The notes under the pieces: model-generated
What the model was told of the DNA's origin: nothing
The model's input: the letters and a program-made list of their open reading frames with translations, nothing else
Databases searched by the model: none
Made by a program: the position numbers and the translations under genes
From: a virus
Length of the DNA stretch: 41,455 nucleotides
IMG/VR virus record: IMGVR_UViG_3300010392_000340
Span: 1 to 41,455 of that record
Strand: one strand, 5' to 3'
Part shown: one piece after another, positions 3,408 through 13,980 of the stretch
Layout: each line of letters opens with the position of its first letter
Position numbering within the stretch: the stretch's first letter is position 1

Positions 3408-3468
3408 TTCCGACCTCCAGGGAAAAGAGATCCAGGCCAGGCCTGGATCTTAATTGTTTTTTTTCTGA

Positions 3469-4521
3469 TTAGTATCCAGTACTGATACAGTGACCGTTGC
3501 GAAACTCATGCTCAAGAAGATCTTCAGTGGAAACATCTTCAAACTTTTCCAGGGCAAGTCTGAGCTCTTCAACAAGAGTCTTGCTGCTCCCAAGAGCTGC
3601 AATGTTGGTTGCACCTTTTTCAGCTTGGATTGGTGCCCAGGTGTTGAGTTTTCTTCTCTCAGCTCTGATCCAATCAAGCAGGTCATTGCGTCTTTCTTTC
3701 AGTCTCCACATCAACACAAGAGTCTGCTTGGTGATGTTGGGGCACATCTTGCACATTGAAGGGCCACAAGCACCATGAGGTGTTGACTCCATGAAGGCAA
3801 TGCAACCGTTGCGATCCAATTGCAGATCTGTGATCAGTGGAAAAGTTTTCTCAACAGACTGCCACCACTTTTGAGGCTGATCTTTTGAAGCACCTTCCAT
3901 GCGTTTTTCTTCACCAACTGCAAAGCCAATCATGACTTCAAGCTTTCTTGTGTGACCACAAAACTCAACCAGGTCACGCTTCCCATGGTCACGCACTTTT
4001 TCCTTCCCAAGTAGCTCAGCACAAAGGCTGTTCATGTAGCGGTAGAAAGGAAGGATCTTCAGGTTGCTTGTGCAACTTGGATTGTTTCTCACTGGAAGTG
4101 AGTCATTGCTTTCATTCTTTGCTTGAAGAGAGTTGGAAGCACTGGTGTGAAAAGCAGTGATGATGTGATCAGTGTCACGGCCTTTGGCCTGGTGAAAGTC
4201 AACAGTGCTGTGCTTGGTTTTCTTGCTCTTGATGTTACCGGCCAGGTGTACAAACTTGATCCCATATGCAGCACAAAGATCCTTGATCATCCAAAGGTGC
4301 TCATACACTTCTTTTCTTTCATTGCCAGTGTCACAAAAGATCACAATCAGTGCGCGGCCTTGAAGTTTCTCAAGAGCAAAGGCAGGATTGTACACAAGCT
4401 GATACAGGATGGTTGTTGAGTCTTGACCAGCTCCAAAGGAAAGGGCCAGGATGCCTTGCTCAAGAGCTTTGGCATTGGTCCAGATTAGTTGCATTGGGTT
4501 TTGAGCTGTTGTGTTTTTCAT
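3469..4521 (-). CDS. PP-loop ATP pyrophosphatase, PAPS reductase/DndC-like (A)
   Basis: 350 aa. The ATP-binding PP-loop is SFGAGQDS (residues 28-35), followed by an IVIFCDTGNE strand. A CTSNLKILP motif (Cys about 150) matches the CTSILKTGP of the second PP-loop gene (5440-6288). Three Cys in CGPSMCKMC (about 252, 257, 260) could, with Cys150, hold an iron-sulfur cluster as in DndC-type proteins. The family activates a substrate with ATP for sulfur transfer or sulfate reduction. The start follows the recurring GGAGGTCATC leader; upstream codons to 4632 are the promoter region. The true substrate is unknown: DNA phosphorothioation, tRNA thiolation or IbrA-like regulation are all possible. Confidence 0.8.
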   Translation of the reverse strand: MKNTTAQNPMQLIWTNAKALEQGILALSFGAGQDSTTILYQLVYNPAFALEKLQGRALIVIFCDTGNERKEVYEHLWMIKDLCAAYGIKFVHLAGNIKSKKTKHSTVDFHQAKGRDTDHIITAFHTSASNSLQAKNESNDSLPVRNNPSCTSNLKILPFYRYMNSLCAELLGKEKVRDHGKRDLVEFCGHTRKLEVMIGFAVGEEKRMEGASKDQPQKWWQSVEKTFPLITDLQLDRNGCIAFMESTPHGACGPSMCKMCPNITKQTLVLMWRLKERRNDLLDWIRAERRKLNTWAPIQAEKGATNIAALGSSKTLVEELRLALEKFEDVSTEDLLEHEFRNGHCISTGY

Positions 4522-4536
4522 GATGACCTCCAAGTG

Positions 4537-4610
4537 ATTGATAGGTCTATAGTACCTTAATTGGTGCGCATTGCCAAAACCAGGCACTTGTGAGGCTGAT
4601 CCAGGCCTGG
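4537..4610 (-). promoter_or_regulatory. Sigma70-type promoter and repeated operator of PP-loop gene A
   Basis: TTGGCA (4572-4577), a 17-nt spacer and TACTAT (4549-4554) form a near-consensus promoter reading leftward. Just upstream of the -35 lies a 27-bp block at 4581-4607 (plus-strand CAGGCACTTGTGAGGCTGAT then CCAGGCC) that recurs with one mismatch at 6349-6375 before the other PP-loop gene. Its position suits an activator site or operator. Confidence 0.7.
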
Positions 4611-4735
4611 ACCTGGAGGGGAGTGCCAACAATTGGTGGTGAGCTCATCTGAAGCTCTCAGAGCTTTTCTAAGGGCCTGGCCCAGATCCCATGTCTTTGG
4701 TAGGGCCAGGAGCTTTGAAGCGATCCAGGAGGATC

Positions 4736-5113
4736 TCAGGAAGTGTACTTTGTGGTGATGTGATGCTCATTCATGATGGCAAAGCAAGCACCACTGTGAG
4801 TCTCATAGGTGTCGCCACCACATAGGTCATCATTGGGGAGCTGGTGCCTGAAGACCTTGAAGAGGTTGGGCCCTTCAGTCATCTCATACTCAACAACCTG
4901 GTACTCATCACCTTCAACCTCATAGTGAGCAATTGACCAGGGGCTTTTCATGTTTTCCATGAAGAGCTGCTCTTCACTGTGCTCCCAGGCCTCACCATCA
5001 ACCAGGTAGTCAATGACCTTCACACCAAGACTGTTGTGACCAATACATACTTTGGTGATCTTCTTTGTGTTGTGTAGGAGTTGCAAAAATTTTTTGATCT
5101 CATTTTTTTTCAT
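4736..5113 (-). CDS. Hypothetical protein, 125 aa
   Basis: Two ATG codons stand side by side (5116 and 5113). The second keeps the phage's usual GGAGGT-4 nt-ATG spacing and was chosen. The protein is acidic with a lysine-rich N-terminal helix (MKKNEIKKFLQLLHNTKKI) and a DEYQVVEYEM strand, and ends near CFAIMNEHHITTKYTS. No family recognised. It lies between the two PP-loop genes and is transcribed with PP-loop gene B. Confidence 0.7.
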   Translation of the reverse strand: MKKNEIKKFLQLLHNTKKITKVCIGHNSLGVKVIDYLVDGEAWEHSEEQLFMENMKSPWSIAHYEVEGDEYQVVEYEMTEGPNLFKVFRHQLPNDDLCGGDTYETHSGACFAIMNEHHITTKYTS

Positions 5114-5126
5114 CATGACCTCCAGT

Positions 5127-5149
5127 GATCCTGGCCCAGGGCCAGGATC
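5127..5149. repeat. 23-nt perfect palindrome built from GATC, CCTGG and GGCC
   Basis: Arms GATCCTGGCCC and GGGCCAGGATC surround a central A, just upstream of the gene ending at 4736. The right 17 nt (5133-5149, GGCCCAGGGCCAGGATC) recur exactly at 12201-12217 and 15355-15371. No U-run follows on either strand, so it is not a standard terminator. Confidence 0.7.
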
Positions 5150-5165
5150 TTGATTGGGTTTTCAA

Positions 5166-5387
5166 TTAAAGATTGTCGATCTGTTCACTGAGAGACTTGT
5201 TGACGTGCTCAAGTTGGTCAATCAGATCTTTAGTGTCACGGTTGATCCCAAAGTTTTCCATTACACCACACTCAAGATCTTTGAGTGCGCTGAGTGCATC
5301 CATCACCTTCAGGTTTTGATCAACCAAGAGTGCCTTCACGGTTTCTTTTTGTTTTTGATCCATTGCTCTTTTGTTTTTCTTTGCCAC
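5166..5387 (-). CDS. Hypothetical protein, 73 aa (GTG start)
   Basis: The start is GTG at 5387, at exactly the same distance from GGAGGT as the ATG starts of neighbouring genes (GGAGGTCAAC then GTG). The protein is helical and charged (MAKKNKRAMDQKQKETVKA), then two helices with heptad-like Leu/Val spacing, so a small coiled coil is likely. No family recognised. It is immediately downstream of PP-loop gene B. Confidence 0.65.
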   Translation of the reverse strand: MAKKNKRAMDQKQKETVKALLVDQNLKVMDALSALKDLECGVMENFGINRDTKDLIDQLEHVNKSLSEQIDNL

Positions 5388-5439
5388 GTTGACCTCCAAA
5401 GAGGCCAGGCCGCTTGGGACCTGGCCGGTTATATTTTTA

Positions 5440-6288
5440 TTAAGCTACTTCAAGACCAGTTGAGAGAAGAGCATCAACGTCAACACCTTCACCTTCCAAG
5501 ATGTCGATGAGTGAGATCTTTTGCTCAGGTTTTGTTTTTGTTGCTCTCTTGTACTTGAAAGTTGTACTGATCTTTTCTTCAGCTCTGATGTAGTCAGCTA
5601 CAATGTCAGGAGCGTGCTCAGCTGCAATTCCAATTTCTCTGTTGGAAGAAAAGATGCAGATTGCACAAGATGCTCTTGATACTCCCCATGAGTAACATGG
5701 GTGTGTTGGGATCTTGTTTTCTTTGATTAGCTTCCACACTTCAGTTTCAAGCATCTCCAAGATTGGTGAGTACTTCACAACAATGCGTGATCCATCTTTC
5801 TTTGTGTTTTTGTTGTCTGGTCTCCAGGCCTCAAGCTTTGCACGTTGAGTTGACTCTTCAGCTCTTTCACCGATCAGCACAAGCACGTTTCCTTTCAGTT
5901 GACGTGCGTACTTGTCGATTGGTCCAGTCTTCAAGATTGAAGTACACCATCTGTTGGCCATGTCAGGCACCATGTACTCTTTTGTCTCACCAGTCTTTCT
6001 GTCGATACGTGGGGCAGTCAATTGGTCAAGAAAGCCTTTCTTGTTTCCTTTCTTGTCAACGGCCTGGACAAAGATTGGATCAACACCAAAGTGAGCACAT
6101 TGCTCTTCAACAATTGCTTTGGTCTCATGCCAGTCAATGTCAATCACAGCGTGCACATAGTGAAAAGTTGCATTAGGGTGTGACGCTTTCATCTCTTCAG
6201 CTTTGAGCATTAGGATTGAAGAGTCTTTCCCTCCTGAGATTGAAACAATGATGTGATCTGCTTGTGTTGTTGTTGTAAATGTTTTCAT
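5440..6288 (-). CDS. PP-loop ATP pyrophosphatase, DndC/PAPS reductase-like (B)
   Basis: 282 aa. PP-loop SGGKDS at residues 18-23, RWCTSILKTGP at about 113-123 (Cys115), GERAEESTQR at about 140, and Cys198, Cys208 and Cys211. PP-loop plus RWCT..LK plus a C-terminal Cys group is the pattern of DndC-like members of the PAPS reductase family, where four Cys hold a 4Fe-4S cluster and ATP activates a sulfur-transfer step. No DndA/D/E-like partner is seen. The ATG at 6288 follows GGAGGTCATC; the TTG at 6300 is part of that leader. Both PP-loop genes share the promoter architecture. Confidence 0.82.
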   Translation of the reverse strand: MKTFTTTTQADHIIVSISGGKDSSILMLKAEEMKASHPNATFHYVHAVIDIDWHETKAIVEEQCAHFGVDPIFVQAVDKKGNKKGFLDQLTAPRIDRKTGETKEYMVPDMANRWCTSILKTGPIDKYARQLKGNVLVLIGERAEESTQRAKLEAWRPDNKNTKKDGSRIVVKYSPILEMLETEVWKLIKENKIPTHPCYSWGVSRASCAICIFSSNREIGIAAEHAPDIVADYIRAEEKISTTFKYKRATKTKPEQKISLIDILEGEGVDVDALLSTGLEVA

Positions 6289-6305
6289 GATGACCTCCAA
6301 AAGTT

Positions 6306-6375
6306 GTTGATAACTAATATTAGTCTGATTGGTGCTATTTTCAAAAATCAGGCACTTGGGAGGCTGATCCAGGCC
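6306..6375 (-). promoter_or_regulatory. Sigma70-type promoter and repeated operator of PP-loop gene B
   Basis: TTGAAA (6339-6344), a 16-nt spacer and TAATAT (6317-6322) read leftward. The 27-bp block at 6349-6375 matches 4581-4607 with one mismatch. Alignable blocks continue to the start codon (ATTGGTGC, TTGATA, CATGATGACCTCCAA on the plus strand), so the whole promoter-leader unit looks duplicated. Confidence 0.7.
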
Positions 6376-6659: not shown

Positions 6660-7089
6660 TCTCATCCTCTTCAGAGATGTATCCTGTCTCAGAAAGTTTT
6701 TGCATGAAATTTAAAGTGATGAGTGACTCAATCTCACCATGCCTGGGAGTATGATCAAAGTCAGTGATGATGTGAGCAAGCTCATGGGAAAGAGTTTTCA
6801 AGATCTCAATCTTGGTGCACCTTTTTTGTTTCATGTGACACTTGTTTCCACCAAAGGGCTTGTGTTTTTTTTGCCAGTGCAAGTACAGTTGGATCTCAAA
6901 AGTATCATCATCATACTGGATGGCCTGGCCAACACAAGGTTGGACCGTGCTGAGATGGTGCCACTTGATGGCAGTGATCCTGGTCAATCCCTTGAAGTTG
7001 AAAGTTTTGGTGTGAGTGAGCTCTTCAATGAAGGGCCTCACCCAATCAAGACGCTTTGAGATCTTCAGATCTTGCATAGTACCTGCCAT
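6637..7089 (-). CDS. SprT-like zinc metalloprotein
   Basis: About 150 aa. It has the HELAH zinc motif near residues 102-106 with a following HTPRHG that supplies the third His (about 117), the layout of the SprT/Spartan catalytic core. Cellular members cut proteins crosslinked to DNA; phage copies are usually unassigned. The N-terminal part (ITAIKWHHLSTV...DTFEIQLYLHW) fits the beta strands before the active helix. ATG at 7089 or 7077 (the latter after GCAGGT) are both possible. It overlaps the end of the metallophosphoesterase gene, suggesting translational coupling and a shared task. Confidence 0.75.
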   Translation of the reverse strand: MAGTMQDLKISKRLDWVRPFIEELTHTKTFNFKGLTRITAIKWHHLSTVQPCVGQAIQYDDDTFEIQLYLHWQKKHKPFGGNKCHMKQKRCTKIEILKTLSHELAHIITDFDHTPRHGEIESLITLNFMQKLSETGYISEEDEIKNQKKS

Positions 7090-8386
7090 CAATCACGCAC
7101 CAATCATCATGCGTGAAGTGTATCTTTTGGATTGACTCTCTTGTCTCACAGTTGATGATCACTTCAAGAAAACCAGTATTCCAACCTGAAGTGTTGCCCA
7201 GGTACTCAGCGTCTTTGACGTGCATTGCTGGTGTTTGACTCCAAGCCAATTGTTTCACCAGGCCGGTGATCTCATTCACATAGGCATATGACTCAATTTT
7301 TCCAGTGTGATGATGGCCATTAGATCCTGACATTGCTTTGAGTCTCTTGTCAGGGATGTGAGTGAAGACAAAAGTGTTGAAGTAGATCCTATAGTTTTTT
7401 TTGCATTGGTTTTTGATGTCTTTGTTGGAGTACGCTGCCAGGTCAAACTTTGATGCCCAATTGATCTCAAACTCATCAAGACCAAAGATGTCTGAAAAAG
7501 AAAGACCAACAACATCAGAAAGAAGTACTCTCACATTGGGAGTTGCATCACAAAGCAATCGAAGGAGGCGCATCTCATGGTTGCCAGCAATCAGATCAAT
7601 CTGTGAGTGAGGGCAAGCTTCCCTCAAAGGTCTGAAGACTCTTTCCCTCACAAAGTCAAAGCGACCAACAATGTCAATGTGTCTGATGTCTATGTTGTAC
7701 TTTCCAAACTCTAGGAGATCATAGATGTCACCATTGAGCACAATCACATCTGGTTGCTTGATCCTGCACTCTTCAATGAAAACTGAAAGTGAAAACTCAC
7801 AACACTCTTTGTCGTGCAGATCACTCATGGCAAGTATCGTTTTGATGTGATACGGCCTGGGAGTCTTCACGTACTTGTTGAAGTATGGAAGCACTTCCTT
7901 TTCAAAAAAAGCTCTATAGTGATCAATGCTTGCTTGCTGTGCAATTGCTCTTTCAACTTTGTGCTGATGCCTTGTCAGCTCCAGGCCTGCTTGTCTCCTG
8001 TACTCTTGAAAGGTCCCAAAGTGTCGGCCCCAAGTACTGTCACTGTATCTTCCATTGTGTCTGTAGAAGTCGCGTGTGATGTGCTTGCCCCAATTGGCTT
8101 CCTGGAGATCTCGAAGATCCTTGATGCAATCTTCTTTGGAGGCATCAGCATCAAAACCTTTGTCAATTTCAGAGAGAAGTGCACGCTGCCTGGTAGTCAG
8201 GCTTTCAACGTAGGATTGAGATGCTTGCTTCAAAAACTCTTTCCATCCCCCGAAAAGTTTTGTCAGCTTTGGTCTTGAGCACTTTGCGTGCTTCAAAAAC
8301 TCATCTCTTTTGATTTTTTGCCTGGGATCTTGATGCTTCCTTTTCAGATCCACAAAGGCACTAATGAGGTCTTTCCTTGAGCTCAT
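7046..8386 (-). CDS. Metallophosphoesterase with N-terminal DNA-binding-type repeats
   Basis: 446 aa. Residues about 180-365 carry the calcineurin-like signature: MSDLHD (189-191), NGDIYD (219-223), AGNHE (268-271), FTHIP (His344) and GHHHTG (358-361). The first 150 residues hold two units ending in FGGWKEFLKQA and HFGTFQEYRRQAGL, like the short repeats found beside HNH homing nucleases, which bind DNA. The combination suggests a DNA-targeted nuclease or phosphatase rather than a metabolic enzyme; this is inferred. No Shine-Dalgarno is visible; a TACAAT box lies 6 nt before the ATG, pointing to leaderless translation. Confidence 0.8.
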   Translation of the reverse strand: MSSRKDLISAFVDLKRKHQDPRQKIKRDEFLKHAKCSRPKLTKLFGGWKEFLKQASQSYVESLTTRQRALLSEIDKGFDADASKEDCIKDLRDLQEANWGKHITRDFYRHNGRYSDSTWGRHFGTFQEYRRQAGLELTRHQHKVERAIAQQASIDHYRAFFEKEVLPYFNKYVKTPRPYHIKTILAMSDLHDKECCEFSLSVFIEECRIKQPDVIVLNGDIYDLLEFGKYNIDIRHIDIVGRFDFVRERVFRPLREACPHSQIDLIAGNHEMRLLRLLCDATPNVRVLLSDVVGLSFSDIFGLDEFEINWASKFDLAAYSNKDIKNQCKKNYRIYFNTFVFTHIPDKRLKAMSGSNGHHHTGKIESYAYVNEITGLVKQLAWSQTPAMHVKDAEYLGNTSGWNTGFLEVIINCETRESIQKIHFTHDDWCVIDGRYYARSEDLKAS

Positions 8387-9025: not shown

Positions 9026-9284
9026 GGCAACCTTCCTTTTTCTTTCTTTGGTTGTACGCAACAAGCATCATTGGCTTCAGTGCTGTGATGGTGCGCATCT
9101 TTTGGATTGTGATGTGATACTCCCTGAGAAGTGAGGCACATCTGTTGGCCTGGATCTGGATCTTTCCTGAAGATCTCATCAGATCCCTGGCCTGTTGTTG
9201 GTGGATCTTGACTCTTGCTTCCTGGACACCAAGGGCCAGGAGCAAAAGCCCAATAATTGTGAAATAAAAAGAGTGCGCTCTCAT
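9015..9284 (-). CDS. Small membrane-anchored protein, 89 aa
   Basis: One N-terminal hydrophobic segment (about residues 5-18, FYFTIIGLLLLALG) is followed by a basic, Gln-rich helical domain with two Cys. Start and upstream stop share ATGA, so it is translationally coupled to the ParB-like gene. The topology (short inside, long basic outside helix) resembles i-spanins, but no partner is adjacent. Function unknown. Confidence 0.6.
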   Translation of the reverse strand: MRAHSFYFTIIGLLLLALGVQEARVKIHQQQARDLMRSSGKIQIQANRCASLLREYHITIQKMRTITALKPMMLVAYNQRKKKEGCHDQ

Positions 9285-9940
9285 TCTTTGGTCACTCTTT
9301 TGACTTTTGGATTGCCCTTGAAGTCTTTGAGTGCAAAGAGAAGAGCATCAGAGTCAGTGTCAAGATTGTGCTCTTTTCTGATTGCACCAAGCTTTGCATC
9401 AACTTCAATCATCTGCTTTGCAGTCATGAAGAAAACCATCTTTGATTGAGGGCCAGAAGAGTCTTTGCTTGCAACAGACTTGTTGCTTTGGTTGAGCTCT
9501 TCCTTTTCTTTTTTGATCCTGGCCTCTTCATGAGCATCAACTTCAGAAAAAATCATGCTGTCAATCTCTTCAATGTCCAGGCCTGGGATCTCAAGATCAT
9601 CACCAATTGCATCCAGATCCAGGATCATCTCTTTGAGAAGATCATCATCCCAATCAGCAAGCTCACCAGTCTTGTTGTCAGCAATGTTGAGTCTCATGAA
9701 GTCAGCTTCAGTCATCTCTTTGACAATCACTGGCACTTCCTGGAGCTCCAAAAGTTGAGCAGCAAGAAACCTGGTGTGACCAATGCAGATCCTGTTTTTT
9801 TGATCAATGACAATTGGTTGCACGAAACCGTTTTGCTTGATGCTTTCAGCAACAGCTTCAACGGCGGCCTCATTGTTTCTTGGGTTTTTCTCATATGGTT
9901 TCAATTGGGAGATCTTTTTGTGGATCATCTTTGGTTTCAT
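9281..9940 (-). CDS. ParB-like N-terminal domain protein
   Basis: 219 aa. The first 110 residues fit the ParB/Srx-type fold: LKPYEKNPRNNEAAVEAVAE, then QNGFVQPIVID, IGHTRFLAAQLL, VPVIV, and a DNKTGELADW segment as in phage ParB domains that accompany DNA methyltransferases. The rest is acidic with a coiled linker and no methyltransferase. No ParA is present, so plasmid partition is unlikely. A ParB-like protein beside PAPS-reductase-like proteins recalls the IbrB/IbrA pair. GGGAGGTGGTCA precedes the ATG. Confidence 0.8.
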   Translation of the reverse strand: MKPKMIHKKISQLKPYEKNPRNNEAAVEAVAESIKQNGFVQPIVIDQKNRICIGHTRFLAAQLLELQEVPVIVKEMTEADFMRLNIADNKTGELADWDDDLLKEMILDLDAIGDDLEIPGLDIEEIDSMIFSEVDAHEEARIKKEKEELNQSNKSVASKDSSGPQSKMVFFMTAKQMIEVDAKLGAIRKEHNLDTDSDALLFALKDFKGNPKVKRVTKE

Positions 9941-12845: not shown

Positions 12846-13021
12846 CTTGTCTGCTCCACAATGATTGGAGTGAGCTCTTGCTCTTTTGCTTGTGCAGTTT
12901 TCATGATCTCACTTTTTGCAAGCTCAATTGCCATCAAGCAGTCACTGAGATCTGAAGCATCATCTTTGACCATGACATCAATCAACTTGTCTTTGAGGTC
13001 CAATGCGTTTTGAAATTTCAT
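12842..13021 (-). CDS. Small hypothetical protein, 59 aa
   Basis: The ATG at 13021 follows AGGAGTGCAATC and overlaps the methyltransferase stop as ATGA; the same overlap occurs at its end with the exonuclease. The protein is predicted to be helical (MKFQNALDLKDKLIDVMVKD, then LMAIELAKSEIMKTAQAKEQE). No family recognised. Confidence 0.65.
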   Translation of the reverse strand: MKFQNALDLKDKLIDVMVKDDASDLSDCLMAIELAKSEIMKTAQAKEQELTPIIVEQTR

Positions 13022-13980
13022 GATTGCACTCCTGGGCAATAGCTCATGATGTGCTCAATCACATCAACGGTCATTGCTTTTCCCATCAGTCGATGAGCTG
13101 CAGTTGTTGAAACTTCAGAGCACCAAAAATCAGGAAAGGTCTGAAGACGCTCTGACTCCAATGGAAAAAGCGGCCTCCAACTGTTGGCTTCCAGGTTATA
13201 TGGAAGCAACTCTTTTCTTTCAAAGACCTTCCTGGGCTTGAAGTCCAATCTCTTCTTTGAAAAGAAAGTCATTGCTTCAGATCCATTGATTGATCCAGTC
13301 AAGCAGTTGGCCTTGCCATCTTGCCTGAAACGCTCATCAAAAGATCTTGGTTTCTCACCTTTGGCAGGCCTGGTGCTTTTGCTCCAGCTGTATCCATACT
13401 TGAAAGGGCACCTGATCTTGATGTCAATGAGTTGAATGAAACGGTTTTCAGGTTGAGGCACATCCCAATTGCACCAATAGAGTCTGGATCTGTTTTGAGC
13501 AGAAACCAGGCCGCTGTTGATCTCGACTGGTTGCACTCCCAAGATCTCAGAGATCTCATCCCTGGCCGCCTTGCTCATTGAGCTCACGTTTTCCAGCAAA
13601 AACCACTTGGGTTGGATCTTCTCAATTGCTTCAACGTACTTGTAGAAAAGTTTTGAGTCTTTTCCCTGGAGATGCTCACGGTGATCATGCCCTGACTTGC
13701 CTGCGTTTTTGATGATACTCAGGTCAGTACAAGGTGATCCACCAATGATGAGATCCACATCCCCAAAGAGATCCCAATCAGAAAACTCTGAAACATCTCC
13801 CAAGTGAGGCACGGCCCTGGTCTGACAAAAGTGCTTGGTGAAAACCTTGATTGCATCTTTGTTGATCTCAAAGAAACCTTTGCAGATGATGTCATCAAGA
13901 TCACATACTGCTTCAGCAAGTGCACGGTGCACGCCCAAAGATCCACCACCAGCTCCAGAAAAAAAGTCCAGGTAAATCAC
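13018..13980 (-). CDS. DNA cytosine-5 methyltransferase, Dnmt3-like
   Basis: 320 aa with the C5-MTase motifs in order: DFFSGAGGGSLG (I, about 5-16), GGSPCTDLS (IV, catalytic Cys84), WFLLENVSSM (VI, ENV 130-132), QNRSRLYW (VIII, about 162), and a C-terminal SERLQTFPDFW...AHRLMGKAMTVDVIEHI (IX-X). The last part resembles the Dnmt3-type ending (R-L-F/x-F-P ... R-L-L/M-G-x-S/A) rather than the common GNAV. The target-recognition segment between VIII and IX is short. No restriction enzyme lies nearby, so it is an orphan. Candidate targets include GGCC, CCWGG and GATC, all over-abundant here; this is inference. Confidence 0.88.
   Translation of the reverse strand: MIYLDFFSGAGGGSLGVHRALAEAVCDLDDIICKGFFEINKDAIKVFTKHFCQTRAVPHLGDVSEFSDWDLFGDVDLIIGGSPCTDLSIIKNAGKSGHDHREHLQGKDSKLFYKYVEAIEKIQPKWFLLENVSSMSKAARDEISEILGVQPVEINSGLVSAQNRSRLYWCNWDVPQPENRFIQLIDIKIRCPFKYGYSWSKSTRPAKGEKPRSFDERFRQDGKANCLTGSINGSEAMTFFSKKRLDFKPRKVFERKELLPYNLEANSWRPLFPLESERLQTFPDFWCSEVSTTAAHRLMGKAMTVDVIEHIMSYCPGVQS

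Follow-up and report, generated by a model that had tools for sequence, protein, structure and literature searches.

We propose, tentatively, that two genes of the IMG/VR virus record IMGVR_UViG_3300010392_000340 form a recurrent, non-obligate two-protein sulfur-transfer module of mobile elements, which would be co-expressed and is predicted to act on nucleic acid. The window, by which we mean the whole 41,455-base stretch that was analyzed, carries contractile-phage genes (sheath, tape measure, baseplate, portal, and head/protease protein) along with the two genes in question, here called A (3469..4521, minus strand; 350 amino acids) and B (5440..6288, minus strand; 282 amino acids). What is new is that A and B are separate clades that recur as neighbors, which had no match in the literature searched. 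Nor was a description of an A/B pair found there, subscription papers and preprints lying outside the scope of the search.

The original prediction, made from the sequence alone, had placed genes for two PP-loop sulfur-transfer-like proteins at these positions. An open reading frame (ORF) lies at each, and both are PP-loop or 3′-phosphoadenosine-5′-phosphosulfate (PAPS) reductase-like. A is a divergent PP-loop protein with the motifs SFGAGQDS, DTGxE, CTSNLKxxP, C240, C257xxC260P, and a C-terminal GHC. B is a PAPS_reduct-fold protein with the motifs RWCTSILK, HPCYSWG, and CAIC. The PP-loop itself is altered in A (GxGQDS) and intact in B (canonical SGGKDS), and the CTSxLKxxP motif expected in both proteins is present as CTSNLKILP in A and CTSILKTGP in B. 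B matched PF01507 (E = 3.8e-18; 66.5 bits, with the cut-off at 22.5) and phrog_424 (E = 1e-39). A matched phrog_424 only (E = 6.6e-17) and had no Pfam match. Related contigs encode relatives of A with 55% (A_G002) and 56% (A_G001) identity and relatives of B with 75% (G002), 73% (G003), and 59% (L070) identity.

Phylogeny placed the two proteins in different lineages. In a maximum-likelihood tree of 228 columns (21 A and 16 B sequences; CysH represented by the Escherichia coli protein only, no BrxP reference, DndC L144 and SspD L146 left out), the A clade (support of 98.1/99) and the B clade (95.2/98) were each monophyletic. The clades were not sisters and neither was nested in CysH, DndC, SspD, or IbrA, and the two proteins did not fall into separate housekeeping families. 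Grouping of A with SspD was weak (74.7/79), and that of B with DndC was unsupported (15.6/56). E. coli CysH paired with CysD (93.1/99) apart from both clades, TtcA grouped with neither, and YbdN stood on a separate branch of its own. The description of A and B as divergent paralogues holds at the superfamily level only, and a recent duplication is ruled out by their 20% identity (BLASTP, E = 0.54) and separate clades. Judged by sequence, both are PP-loop (N-type ATP-pyrophosphatase) proteins whose divergence is ancient.

Three cysteines are common to both proteins (C150, C257, and C260 in A; C115, C208, and C211 in B), and this C...CxxC set was conserved in every aligned A and B sequence. DndC, SspD, and TtcA have the set as well, and E. 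coli CysH is without it. The similar four-cysteine arrangement that had been claimed for A and B was correct for these three; the fourth cysteine sits at different places and is conserved in A (C240) but not in B (C198). The three-cysteine site of both proteins is probably an iron-sulfur site, and [4Fe-4S] sulfur-insertion chemistry is described for such PP-loop enzymes in two papers (PMC9283937, PMC10067955). B has no cysteine after C211. A ends in GHCISTGY, in which the GHC is nearly invariant, its cysteine being G or Q in 3 of 21 relatives.

A sequence search of solved structures returned nothing useful; a fold search with AlphaFold2 models (pLDDT of 87 for A and 80 for B) gave matches. The B model matched APS reductase 2GOY (Z = 15.9) and NcsA (Z = 13.5), and the A model matched yeast PAPS reductase (Z = 10.5), NcsA (Z = 10.3), YcfA (Z = 9.4), and LarE (Z = 9.2). 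Overall, the nearest folds were APS/PAPS reductases and the thiolases NcsA, TtuA, and LarE. Such likeness between predicted models and solved structures is by itself no proof of function for A or B.

We drew relatives of A from viral contigs, genome contigs, and plasmids and ran a B-family profile on the surrounding ORFs. Of the 25 virus loci that carry A, 7 (L070, L072, L074, L076, L080, L083, and L085) had a B-family gene within 5 kb of it and in the same orientation. At a comparable score, there was none among 51 control loci, which carry a PAPS-like gene only distantly similar to A and were shorter on average (one weak 42-bit match; Fisher's P of ~2e-4 to 1.5e-3). The pairing is also present in the window and in G002. 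In three bacterial contigs, B immediately precedes A, namely in Chitinophaga (L044), Marinobacter (L047), and Rhodocytophaga (L045), in the last of which two small ORFs separate the genes. B was the commonest neighbor family of A. On whole contigs, B was found in 9 of the 25 A-bearing relatives searched, plus the window (G003, without A, was left out), and in 8 of the 10 contigs with both genes it lay within 5 kb of A, compared to 1.6 expected by random placement. The B and A reading frames overlap through an ATGA stop/start in L070 and by 11 nucleotides in L072, and paired B genes come from several B sublineages in the tree. Across ~760 further genomes (one phylum and one class), there was no close A beyond two known carriers; A is therefore rare in chromosomes. 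These patterns of gene order suggest that A and B recur as a two-gene module in phages and other mobile elements, without being obligate partners. The heteromeric enzyme suggested in the original prediction becomes more likely with the recurrent adjacency elsewhere, and an obligate heteromer is unlikely because many elements have only one of the two genes.

In the Chitinophaga B-like gene (L044:3870-4961), an in-frame stop follows KES, and the gene may be decayed or two-part. In L085 (2062-4458), a 799-amino-acid B-like protein has a long N-terminal part (weak DUF3140) and overlaps A. In Streptomyces phage Gilgamesh, only one gene stands between the B-like gene (L019:5727-6614) and a base-modification neighbor, a queuine tRNA-ribosyltransferase, which is thus two genes away. 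B-like proteins of <60% identity matched 1624 plasmid records, 1147 of which were typed as conjugative.

The two genes also share a 5′ element. The 27-bp blocks reported upstream of A (4581..4607, minus strand) and B (6349..6375, minus strand) do differ by one mismatch, and no third copy with up to 7 mismatches occurs in the window. They sit inside a 52-bp ungapped similarity with a score of 32, compared to at most 15 for random 300-bp window pairs and 18.5 for the next best among 3307 upstream-region pairs of the window. The leader GGAGGTCATC with the ATG spans 4519..4531 for A and 6286..6298 for B (both minus strand), and GGAGGTCATCATG has two occurrences in the window, only before A and B, in agreement with the predicted shared leader. 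Each gene is further preceded by a 42-bp promoter-like element on the minus strand, reading CAAGTGCCTG..TTTTTGAAA..TAATAT before B (6317..6358) and CAAGTGCCTG..TTGGCA..TACTAT, in the same register, before A (4549..4590). The claim of a near-consensus promoter stood in part. Sigma-70-like hexamers in the A/B region were not above chance (6 found, 7.7 expected), and the putative promoter is supported instead by its conservation in a second phage, G002, which is a related contig with both genes. Upstream regions of G002 show the same AAGTGnnTG - TTTTTG - TAATAT layout, identically spaced. The element has four copies there, before ORF L002:2811, the small gene L002:3295 that precedes B, ORF L002:4512, and A. 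A matrix built from the four G002 sites only gave its top score to the window B element (19.0, with the runner-up at 7.3) and did not recover the window A element. Conversely, with a matrix from the window sites only, the G002 B-unit site ranked first.

Conservation of the element across phages makes co-regulation of A and B plausible, and the two proteins are probably made together, each from its own copy of a predicted accessory-gene promoter. By its distribution, the shared block appears to be a promoter type of phage accessory genes whose use extends beyond A and B. An operator specific to the pair is ruled out by the four copies in G002. The co-regulation of paralogues that had been called unusual keeps its shared 5′ element and, with the same element before four accessory units in G002, is better explained by a phage promoter that recurs throughout an accessory region.

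Genomic neighbors lean towards a nucleic-acid target and defense evasion. Plasmid relatives of A adjoin ArdC (pTi) or lie near thermonuclease-family genes, and neighbors of genomic A copies include ArdA, ParB, a macro domain, and methylases of the C5 and N6 types, most of them found a single time. In phage KB12-38, DndB (1.9e-56) and a C5 methylase accompany two PAPS-like genes. Motif counts in the window were skewed. GAAC/GTTC, the Dnd core, was seen 35 times (~250 expected) and GATC 503 times (~260 expected). GAAC/GTTC was strongly rarer than expected in the window, G001, G002, and L070, and tetranucleotide use beyond codon usage was very uneven in the same four. As a sign of phosphorothioation, the rarity of GAAC/GTTC is ruled out because many further tetramers, among them ATCG, AAAT, ACGA, and GTAA, were skewed as strongly.

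The proposed sulfur-transfer module builds on what was observed, namely homology and fold, conservation of the cysteines and of the promoter element, and the pairing of the two genes in genomes. In the mechanism that we infer, B, with its canonical loop, would activate the substrate through adenylation, and the cluster and cysteines would carry sulfur from a host cysteine desulfurase. A, with its altered loop and extra conserved cysteines, including the C-terminal GHC, would be the partner or a second sulfur-transfer subunit. The target would most likely be nucleic acid (phage DNA or tRNA), with evasion of host defense as the likeliest benefit. A more specific version, in which a two-subunit sulfur transferase assembled from two PP-loop lineages places an undescribed sulfur mark on phage or plasmid nucleic acid and so evades host defense, we consider unlikely.

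Several observations weigh against the proposed module. B is missing from G001 and A from G003, and ~16 of 26 A-bearing contigs (window included), many of which are fragments, show no B; B-like genes also occur in isolate phages that have no close A. The two gene trees disagree, and L070 and the window are 59% identical in B and only 31% in A. Virus loci were found via shared peptide patterns, and they are a non-random sample in which related contigs are not fully independent. For the target, enrichment of C5 methyltransferases near A was not significant (P = 0.11), and the case for DNA consequently rests on weak context. Furthermore, the PADLOC families listed (25 of the 66 that matched, for 23 proteins of the window) included no Dnd/Ssp-type partner (DndD/DndE, SspB/SspC).

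It is possible, if doubtful, that A and B act independently as accessory genes with substrates of their own, have a promoter type and a cargo region in common, and have become adjacent through modular cargo exchange. The occurrence of each gene without the other and the discordant gene trees would fit this account, as would the presence of the same promoter before unrelated small genes in G002. It is harder to reconcile with B being the single commonest A neighbor family, far closer than random placement predicts, with 51 control PAPS-like loci that lack a nearby B, and with the stop/start overlaps in L070 and L072. The usual phage annotation would make both proteins assimilatory PAPS reductases, that is, cysH auxiliary metabolic genes. 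The COBRA study read 167 phage cysH genes as sulfate assimilation, with two each in three circular genomes (PMC10914622). Those phages resemble the window in having two PAPS-reductase-like genes per phage; separate clades and adjacency were not found in the papers searched. B has the overall fold of CysH and Pseudomonas aeruginosa APS reductase (2GOY) and the PF01507 match, and A resembles CysH-type enzymes in fold. However, both differ from E. coli CysH in their cysteine set, lie outside the E. coli CysH/CysD branch in clades of their own, and are located on mobile elements. The C-terminal catalytic cysteine of CysH (ECGxH) is absent from A and B, since B has none after C211 and the tail of A is GHC, whose cysteine is not universal. 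We therefore regard an assimilatory role as very improbable.

Two accounts that do involve sulfur transfer also seem improbable, to about the same degree. One is a reduced phosphorothioation-type unit, in which an SspD-like A and a DndC/BrxP-like B, with host desulfurase and DNA-recognition partners, would mark phage DNA. A and B share the C...CxxC set and, in altered form in A, the PP-loop with DndC and SspD, and the best defense-library matches of B in PADLOC were BrxP (1e-20), SspD (2e-13), and DndC (3e-11). Matches of A to these families were weak, several A relatives match SspD, and the gene content of phage KB12-38 points the same way. Yet the scores fall far below those of true members. 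The NCBIfam DndC model TIGR03183 gave B 36.3 bits against a cut-off of 290.4 and no match to A, and for SspD, B reached 48.6 and A 20 bits compared to 307-456 for genuine proteins. B aligned only to positions 131-345 of the 779 in the BrxP model, which falls short of a full-length BrxP with BREX partners (BREX type 4). Both proteins lie outside the DndC and SspD clades, and a Dnd/Ssp partner was missing from the PADLOC matches listed for the window. Solo SspD/DndC-like genes do occur in Sinorhizobium prophages, with function left open (PMC12429752). The other account is that A and/or B thiolate tRNA, as TtcA, TtuA, and NcsA do, perhaps to evade anticodon nucleases or adjust translation. The three-cysteine set is by alignment identical to that of TtcA, the folds are near NcsA and TtuA, and eukaryotes have a two-protein PP-loop thiolase, Ctu1/Ctu2 (PMC10067955). 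Against this, TtcA, TtuA, NcsA, and LarE are single proteins rather than two divergent ones, neither A nor B groups with TtcA, no tRNA-binding domain was identified in A/B, and the mobile-element neighbors are DNA related.

Other features of the window surround the two genes. Between B and A lie a small ORF with a GTG start (5163..5387, minus strand; ~74 amino acids, charged) and an ORF of 126 amino acids (4736..5116, minus strand) with a weak phrog_23107 match (E = 0.0055). A terminator-like hairpin downstream of A (3428..3450, minus strand; 10 pairs, then CTTTTCC) is weak evidence of termination, given 10 such sites found and 7.5 expected. Palindromic GGCCTGG / ATCCTGGCC stretches recur in intergenic regions (e.g., 3428-3450, 5120-5150, and 4590-4610) and may be terminators or members of a repeat family. 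An ORF at 7046-8386 combines homing-endonuclease-associated repeats (PF18780) with a calcineurin-like phosphoesterase and is conserved in G001 (72%) and G002 (62%). A C5-cytosine methylase (13018-13980) and a ParB-like ORF (9281-9940) lie upstream of A and B. IbrA/IbrB (YbdN/YbdM) likewise bring a PAPS-like and a ParB-like gene into one region; in the window, however, other genes occupy the ~3 kb that separate B from the ParB-like gene upstream.

In viral metagenomes, "cysH" is a sulfur gene that is often reported and that is commonly taken to aid sulfate assimilation. For the family examined here, sequence comparisons indicate that this label is probably wrong and that sulfur transfer is favored. 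The recurrent A/B neighbors offer a concrete two-gene set, of which the overlapping pair in L070 is a compact example. Should DNA turn out to be the target, sulfur-based modification would be extended from bacterial defense to the phage side.

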